Assembly: GCA_943736015.1 (NCBI GenBank)
Contig: OX031062.1
Location: 312,501-376,500 of the forward strand
DNA length: 64,000 nucleotides
DNA from: Tridacna crocea
Lineage: Eukaryota; Mollusca; Bivalvia; Cardiida; Cardiidae
Reading direction: 5' to 3'
Positions 23,589-26,700 of the stretch are shown here, piece after piece; the first letter of the stretch is position 1, and each line of letters starts with the position of its first letter. Made by a program: the position numbers and the translations under genes. Below the pieces are notes generated by a model that was given only the letters and a program-made list of their open reading frames with translations, was not told the origin of the DNA and did no database searches.

Positions 23589-23717
23589 CTATTTCGTCCC
23601 ACTAAGGTTACGTACAATCTGTTTGATAACTTCTCCCATATCCAAAATATCTTTCTTGAAATCTTCTTCCTCGCAACAGAATTTTGGTGAGCTCTTCAGA
23701 TAGACTCTTTTTATCTT
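23589..23717 (-). CDS. Receptor last exon: end of kinase-like tail and stop
   Basis: Acceptor AATTATTTTACAG; phase 0. [20 protein letters not shown], then [15 protein letters not shown] resembles the kinase helix-F stretch (D-x-x-x-x-G-x-x-x). No DFG motif. It ends in TAG at 23589-23591, before the rest of a normal C-lobe. Confidence 0.7.
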   Translation of the reverse strand, partial: KIKRVYLKSSPKFCCEEEDFKKDILDMGEVIKQIVRNLSGTK

Positions 23718-26700
23718 CTGTAAAATAATTCAACAAACATTCTGTATGAATACCGTTAGCTCTTTTTCTGTCCAGATGACAAAAGTGAAAACAAAAATAA
23801 GTATCGCTGGAACAATAGAGTTATCTCCCTTTCATTACTCTTGAGACATACATGGTAAGAAAATGAACAAGTCTCATGACATAGAGCGATATTATCGGAA
23901 CGTACACGGTGCCCGTACCGTGGTCCAAGGCTTAAATCACAGATACCAGGAAAATAAAATAAAAGCTTTAACAGACTTGTTGGACACACGGTGAAATGTG
24001 CCTTTATTATTGCAGATGGCTGTGTGCGAATGTACTTAATAAATGTTGCCATTGATTTTTGGATTACTGGGTCATCAGCCTGCTTTATTACCAAGAAGAT
24101 GCTTCTGCTTGATAATATAGCATACTGATGATACGTGCTATTCACAATAAAACACCAGATTTTCGCCTTACCCCTTTAGAAGAAGCCGTGATGATGACAG
24201 AGGAGCTGTTGACAGAGCCGTGTATCATTTCTGTAGAGTGCAATAGTTCTACGGCTCGACACAACTTCAGCGCAATGATGAATGCGTTCTGAAAGTATAG
24301 AACCAATATTAGGCATCAAAATAGCAGTTTTTATTGACTGAACAATCTCTCTGACGCAAAGTGTTTACAGAAGGTCAGAACAGTCGACTGACTGCTATTG
24401 AATCCCTGAATGGTTGTAAAAACAAAGGTTGACGCACTTTAGACCAGTAATGATGGAATCAGCAAAGTACTATAAACCTCGGGTGTCTTATCTGGCCGCA
24501 TAGCCATCTCCACATCCACATAAAAAGATGAAAGAGAAAAAAATCACATGACTCAAATTATTGACGTTTCTGTAAATGTCGTAACGCTGCAATTGGTGCT
24601 AGTAAAGAAACACACTACGTATTAATTATCGCTAGTATGATAGGGTTATCTGTATATCTGGAAAGAAAATGAACAAGTTTCTCGAGACAGTACGATAATT
24701 TAAGCTCTGAATCGATGCCCGTAACGAAGATAAAACATTAACTCACCCGTAACGAAAATAGCATATGAAAAATATAGCCTGATTTTACTTATAAGCCTCA
24801 GTTAATAAAGATAATTACATTTGATGTTTTAATCCTATGTTGCCATAGATTTGTGTTTACACGTAGTCACAGTAGTAGGTCAAAACGCGCCTTTAATTGG
24901 AAGATGTTCTGCTGAGCGAAATAAGAAGTATTGTGTGAAATGAAATGGCTTCTAAATCGTAAAAAGGGACATTAGGACATTTGCTTAAAGTGTCGTCTCA
25001 GATAAACCTGCACTGCCCGCGCAAGCTAATCCGAGACGGCACTTTACGGTTACATTTGGTTTTGTGCTAAAGAAGACTTGCACAAAACAGAAATTTACAG
25101 ACAAATGGAAAGTGTCGTATCAGGTTAGCCTGCGCGGACGATATGTCCCAATGTCCCTTTTGGCGTGTTGCGGGACGAAATTACAAACCTTGGGAGTCAG
25201 TGTTGTCGTTACAAAATACTGGTCCAAGGATAATTTTAACCTGGAAACAGGCTGGCCGTTACCAAACATAAACAAGCCGCTGTCAAAGATTTCCGTCACG
25301 TTTCCGGATTTCTCCTCTGCAAGATAAAAATTGATAGATCGATTGTACATTGTTCTGATGCTCTGTGTAGCTGTTAAAGATTACCAGAGTGAGAAACAGA
25401 GAAACAGAGAGAGACAGATATACAGAGAGCGTTTCCAATCAAGCTGATATCAAATGATATCAAAAGATTTAGATTCAAATATGAACTTTTGAGTGATCTC
25501 CCTAAGGGTAGCGTTGGTCAACTGTCACCATCGTTATTTATCATATTGATCAGGACTCACAAAAAACAAAACCACTCGTTACTACGATATTTCTGTCTGT
25601 GTTCAAAACTGCAGGAAATGATTTCCTTTTCTGTTCAGCAGTTTAAGTTTCTTAAAGTTTTTAATTATTCCATACCACCTCTGAAGGAGTGCTGTGATCC
25701 AAGTCTGTCCTTTATGGTAAGTTTCTGAAACATTAACGAAGAAATGATTTCACCATGCATTTTTGACCTGTTTAAATTTTACATTTGTTGCTGCTTAGTT
25801 CCTATCTTAACTTACGAAATTGTTATGTGAAAACGAATTCCATTGATTATTTTAGCTGAAGTTTTTTTTTTTTAAACAATCAAGTCAAGAAACACCCAGA
25901 ATTGTCGACTGGATGACCATGATAAACTGACTTCACTTTTCAGAATAGATGGTACAAAAATTGTTTAAGATAACTGTTACTGTTTGAGACCGTGCATATA
26001 TTCACAAGTTAATCTGTAATACATTCTAAGATTTTTTCATTGTAAAGACAGTAAAAATGTTTCATTTGCTAAAACAACTTGGTTAACTCACTACCAAAAC
26101 GACAATATTTTAGACTGGTCCAAATTGAAAGCATTTGCAGGCAACAAAATAAAAGTGACTGAAAATTTGAAATTTGTTTTGTAAAGAGCAGAAAACATTG
26201 TGGGAAAAGGAGAAAATGCTGGTTACCAGCATTTTCTCCTTTTCCCACAATGTTTTCAAAAGGCTTCTTTCTCAGTGGCGTCAAAAGTAGGGATTGTGTG
26301 GTAATGGGTTAAGCAAATTAAAAACTGCAATACTTTAAAAGTAAAACAATATCAAAGGTGCAAGACGAAGGATGCCATGTAAACCGAGATTGGAAATTTA
26401 TACTTAAACACTTCCCCTCCCCTGCTTTACTTACCGCTTGCGACAGGGAGCTTCCTAGGGTGTACAAGAAGGGGTTGATCGCAGAGTTGATTGGTAATAC
26501 GAACACGGCAATCCAAGCGTACACTTGTCCCGATATCGGGTGGTCTCTTAACGCAAGTATACCTGAAAACGTCCAATAATTAACTCATAACATCAAAAAC
26601 ATATTTATGGCAGGTGGTTTAAAACATTCTTGTCAAGTGTTGATAATCAAATTACTTTTTACTGAACTGTGAATGTAGTTACTGCGGCCAAGCAAACATT

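Follow-up and report, generated by a model that had tools for sequence, protein, structure and literature searches.

Does a relaxin-receptor-like receptor of the bivalve Tridacna crocea end in a piece of a protein kinase? The question is raised by a gene, here called gene A, on the minus strand of contig OX031062.1. It lies in a stretch of 64,000 nucleotides (positions 312,501 to 376,500 of the contig), referred to below as the window; an earlier note on this DNA had proposed that gene A encodes a GPCR-pseudokinase fusion. Proteins in which a seven-transmembrane (7TM) receptor is fused to a kinase have been reported from oomycetes, amoebozoa, choanoflagellates, and sponges (PMC12716839, PMC5784254). 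The passages of the 2018 GPCR-bigram paper cited here state that GPCR-bigrams are rare in metazoans or even do not exist there (PMC5784254). In the corresponding passages of a 2025 survey of choanoflagellate GPCRs, tyrosine-kinase-type fusions are placed in sponges and in no other metazoan lineage, with none of them characterised, and the discussion counts GPCR TKL/Ks among the families found in metazoans (PMC12716839). All loci compared in the present study, namely receptors A, B, C, and D and a set of kinases, come from one genome.

By its predicted domains, the receptor encoded by gene A combines LDLa, LRR, and 7TM parts and belongs to the relaxin-receptor-like group. The large exon (Table 1) gave Pfam matches above cut-off for 7tm_1 (E 1.2e-26) and LRR_8 (E 2.5e-24), and an LDLa repeat at 28365-28481 in the same exon matched Ldl_recept_a with E 6.1e-4 and 20.4 bits, below the cut-off of 24.1. 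The additional LDLa repeat is probably an upstream exon of gene A. Among solved structures, relaxin receptor 1 was nearest to the 7TM region (E 1.1e-41), followed by the thyrotropin receptor and other glycoprotein hormone receptors. Inspection by eye showed that the 7TM region retains DR after TM3, CWFP in TM6, and NPFLY in TM7. LDLa module(s), LRRs, and a rhodopsin-class 7TM region thus follow each other in the order that defines a relaxin-receptor-like LGR (type C), an architecture common to gene A, RXFP1, and the invertebrate GRL101/LGR-type receptors. GRL101 and related LGRs have been described by Veenstra in 2021 (PMC8286064); the sections of that paper cited here do not mention a kinase-like tail, unlike what is seen in gene A. 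Two more LDLa-like motifs are located at 42447-42569 and 42883-42987 of the window (minus strand), 13 kb upstream of gene A, and may be 5' exons, either of gene A or of a receptor next to it.

Table 1. Exons and repeats of gene A, with positions counted in the window.
Feature	Position	Strand	Content or evidence
Additional LDLa repeat	29354..29464	-	Regex scan and Pfam Ldl_recept_a, E 2.7e-8, above cut-off
Large exon	26939..28495	-	One LDLa repeat, LRRs, TM1-TM6
TM7 exon	26435..26562	-	Rest of TM6 and TM7 (NPFLY)
Juxtamembrane exon (exon 3), 46 bp	25679..25724	-	Basic, Ser-rich; phase 0 in, phase 1 out
Tail exon 4	25189..25316	-	Kinase profile alignment
Tail exon 5	24172..24288	-	Helix E and degenerate catalytic loop
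Tail exon 6	23589..23717	-	LKSSP at the DFG place (by alignment), helix F, stop codon

The large exon ends in CWFPVGLMG at a GTAATT donor; at its 5' side, the acceptor CATTTACAG was selected by visual inspection. The donor of the TM7 exon is in phase 0, eight residues past NPFLYT. This splice position is identical in the paralogue B, and also in receptor C when a donor picked by eye is used. After TM7 come four exons with AG acceptors and GT donors in a single open frame, which ends at a stop at 23589. As calculated from the exon coordinates, the introns of the tail are short (362 to 900 bp). Four minus-strand exons running in phase from TM7 to a stop had been claimed before, and their coordinates and peptides proved exact, with GT-AG borders throughout. 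When the exon encoding TM6 is read through its donor (26938-26800, minus strand), about 26 codons remain open before a stop with AATAAA close by, and a shortened receptor isoform without TM7 and tail is therefore conceivable. A short palindromic repeat of the ggagaaaatgctggtaaccagcattttctcc type occurs at ~26290-26190 of the window, in a tail intron, and at 23340-23240, behind gene A. Similar translated stretches recur at related loci (L009-L013), and the repeat looks like a MITE-type interspersed repeat.

Receptor B is situated at C7:469-477 kb, ~130 kb from A and on the opposite strand, and has corresponding tail exons. The two tails are 36% identical over 121 codons. Identity was lowest in exon 4 (17% over 42 codons) among the three tail exons compared, and reached 45% over 38 codons in exon 5 and 49% over 41 codons in exon 6. 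A 49-bp stretch at C7:473182 is a candidate counterpart of exon 3 in B. An earlier donor was considered as the end of exon 4 in B, and was replaced by a GTATGT donor, which gives A and B exons of equal length.

Searched singly, both tails had PK_Tyr_Ser-Thr as their best Pfam family, A with E 0.022 and 14.5 bits and B with E 5.7e-4 and 19.7 bits; neither reached the cut-off of 23.1 bits, and neither contains a recognised whole kinase domain of the GPCR-TK or GPCR-TKL/K kind. In the PDB, VRK3 came first for A (E 0.18) and for B (E 0.1, with exon 4 ending at the earlier donor). A profile of the two tails was then compared, using hhalign, with 20 aligned kinase loci of this genome (HRD-type motif in 14 of them, DFG in 17). 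The score was 44.25 over 88 columns (E 1.3e-6 for this single comparison), and the match spanned hinge/helix D, helix E, the catalytic loop, and helix F. None of 200 column-shuffled controls reached this score (the best was 19.9), and the reversed alignment scored 14.65. Most of the signal came from B, which on its own gave E 1.6e-6 against the kinases, compared to 9.3e-4 for A. Helix E, catalytic loop, and helix F, elements of a kinase-fold C-lobe, are in the correct order in this sequence profile, as the earlier note had suggested for A. Exon 4 can plausibly be read as strand beta5, hinge, and helix D, with beta5 and hinge in its first part.

The profile of both tails also retrieved 187 PDB matches at E up to 10 (best E 8.9e-4), and 59 of the best 60 of these 187 were kinases, with 6fwv as the only non-kinase. 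At the top of these best 60 were 7t6f, which is listed as a tyrosine-protein kinase and which we take to be JAK1, NEK7, and VRK3. The reversed profile had 4 PDB matches, none of them to a kinase. All six NCBIfam rows obtained with tails A and B were kinase-containing models. Besides 6fwv, the exceptions for the two tails were a sub-threshold Jas_motif match and one unnamed PDB chain. A kinase HMM search, named in the earlier note as a check, thus gave a divided answer: B (E 5.7e-4) and the joint profile (E 1.3e-6) point to a kinase, but A alone is weak and the Pfam scores are below cut-off. Judged from these profiles, the kinase likeness is real but partial; paralogue B makes the case convincing, and A alone is suggestive only.

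The part that is present appears to be a kinase fragment that reaches from near the hinge to helix F, rather than a whole pseudokinase. In A, the place of HRDxxxxN reads HGSVNSSS, and in B it reads HGRISTET, so that the H is kept and the D is lost, and at the place of DFG the alignment has LKSSP in A and LRSSP in B. Both motifs of active kinases, HRDxxxxN and DFG, are absent from the two tails. The loop HGSVNSSS and the missing DFG had been described for A, and B turns out to be equally degenerate. In both proteins a stop codon follows shortly beyond helix F. With filters off, a kinase HMM was run on the 589 same-strand frames that lie downstream of TM7 in the three receptors A, B, and C and span 20 residues or more. 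Exon 5 of B ranked first (E 3.1e-4); exon 5 of A came second, with an E of 0.12 that by itself is close to noise. No further kinase-like frame scored better than E 0.52 among these 589, a set that shorter exons escape, and the scan, read by score, revealed no kinase N-lobe (Gly-rich loop, VAIK lysine, helix C) in A, B, or C. A fuller kinase concealed in introns or beyond the stop was rejected, since the same scan showed none. With HRDxxxxN degenerate, no DFG, and no N-lobe seen, catalysis and ATP binding are implausible. Of the proposed GPCR-pseudokinase fusion, the in-frame union of a 7TM region with a degenerate kinase piece was upheld, but this piece is a fragment only, with the stop after helix F.

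A tblastn search of the genome with the 7TM region (E up to 1e-5) found at least 10 matching stretches, which we read as at least six genes: A, B, C, D on C16, and two on C3 (one at 71.3 Mb). Receptor C is located at C7:6.92 Mb, and its 7TM region is 49% identical to that of A. The tail exons of C were chosen by eye from listed frames, and neither of them was recovered by tblastn with tail A against the whole genome or with tails A and B against the regions of C and D. Compared with the A/B profile, the C tail gave an hhalign probability of 5.5 and E 0.0069, and 0 of 200 shuffles scored higher, a control that is lenient because the exons were picked by eye. One of 200 shuffles scored higher when the C tail was compared with kinases. 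Alone, it found no kinase in Pfam or PDB, and the matches were chance-level ones to DPAGT1_ins and DNA primase. In its gene plan, C resembles A and B: it has a possible phase-0 donor exactly eight residues past NPFLYT, a tail exon that stays open only when entered in phase 1, and an intron in phase 0 behind the last glycine of the loop exon. Its stop, too, comes soon after a DDIHKLG segment. The resulting intron phases 0, 1, and 0 are compatible with those of A and B; no counterpart of the small exon 3 was identified in C. These phases and the weak match to the A/B profile suggest that C probably shares the kinase-like tail; with exons picked by eye and a tail that is barely similar, it counts as probable. 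A tail that is found in B and probably in C is more than an accident of one gene.

In receptor D, the frame runs on beyond the point after TM7 where A, B, and C are spliced, into a different tail that matched no Pfam family. Receptor D is an LGR at C16:14357-14362 kb (L010-L011), and its tail reads SSHAWDRKPIYRQLELMRMRSFNDKS... In an unrooted FastTree analysis of five 7TM regions, A grouped with B (0.976) and D with E (0.997), and C stood alone. Gain of the tail, at an intron behind TM7, probably preceded the separation of A, B, and C; if C does share it, the fusion would have arisen once, ahead of the A/B/C split.

The explanation that we favour, and consider rather probable, is that gene A encodes a relaxin-type receptor fused to a catalytically dead pseudokinase C-lobe that has been kept as a protein-docking tail. 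According to this model, a shortened dead C-lobe, spanning roughly hinge to helix F, would form the cytoplasmic tail. The tail would have no ATP-binding lobe and would not phosphorylate; it could serve as a built-in helical docking surface for a partner, such as a kinase, an arrestin-type adaptor, or a substrate. Docking would bring the partner to the activated receptor or set receptor trafficking, and the 7TM part, with DR after TM3, CWFP, and NPxxY kept, would signal via G proteins. A docking role is suggested because catalysis has been lost and the frame has been retained.

The main rival holds that the tail derives from a kinase and is now a tolerated, degenerating extension without a function of its own. 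Such a relic would have lost its catalytic motifs and N-lobe, and it would be expected to diverge, as the tails of A and B have done in comparison with their two 7TM exons (68% and 78% identity), and as C may have done until its kinase similarity sank into noise. We nevertheless find this unlikely, since the frame and the stop just past helix F have been retained in A, B, and probably C. Moreover, differences between the A and B tails are most frequent at third codon positions (58/40/77 at first/second/third positions in 121 codons, chi-square p 0.003), and pN/pS in the tail (0.51) is not above that of the LRR ectodomain (0.54); it is 0.27 in TM1-6. With a pS between A and B that is about 0.78 for the tail and exceeds 1 for exon 6, synonymous sites are saturated, which makes the strength of selection uncertain and the evidence for a kept protein moderate. 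Conservation at the codon level moderately favours a kept function of the tail over a relic.

An unrelated, mostly helical receptor tail could mimic helix E and an HG loop by chance, as might be supposed from the weak, sub-cut-off scores of single sequences and from the failure of C to match a kinase in Pfam or PDB. Chance resemblance is nonetheless improbable: the profile comparison lies far above its shuffled and reversed controls, helix E, loop, and helix F are correctly ordered, and the Pfam, PDB, and NCBIfam matches of A and B are almost all kinases. Still less probable is that the tail exons form a different downstream transcript, or are joined to the receptor in some isoforms only, as the readthrough frame of the TM6 exon might allow; we set this idea aside because the exon order and intron phases recur behind receptor B and probably C, and the junctions are in phase across short introns.

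If the tail is indeed a docking module kept from a kinase, its closest parallels in plan are GPCR-TKL/K and GPCR-TK, in which a 7TM region is likewise followed by a C-terminal kinase-related domain. In the passages of the two papers cited here, those proteins have a recognised kinase domain and belong to other 7TM families, whereas in gene A an LGR is joined to a fragment that lacks the N-lobe and the catalytic motifs (PMC12716839, PMC5784254). An HG loop like that of tails A and B is found in VRK3 and in JAK JH2, and the region of 7t6f with the HG loop lies within the top profile match. VRK3 and JAK JH2 are pseudokinases that retain the whole bilobal fold, whereas the tail of gene A comprises only about 110 residues. 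Among open-licence full-text papers, no report of an LGR-pseudokinase fusion was found by title or abstract start, and the fusion may be present yet unremarked in other molluscs. A broader proposal, which we put forward tentatively and at somewhat less than even chances, is that, long ago, a kinase C-lobe entered a bilaterian receptor clade through exon insertion behind TM7 and became a permanent docking module there, independently of the fusions in choanoflagellates and sponges. If the docking-tail reading of gene A is true, a relaxin-receptor-like 7TM protein with a minimal, dead kinase half-domain would illustrate how little of a pseudokinase may suffice for its retention, and it would provide a natural test of kinase-derived tails steering GPCR output.
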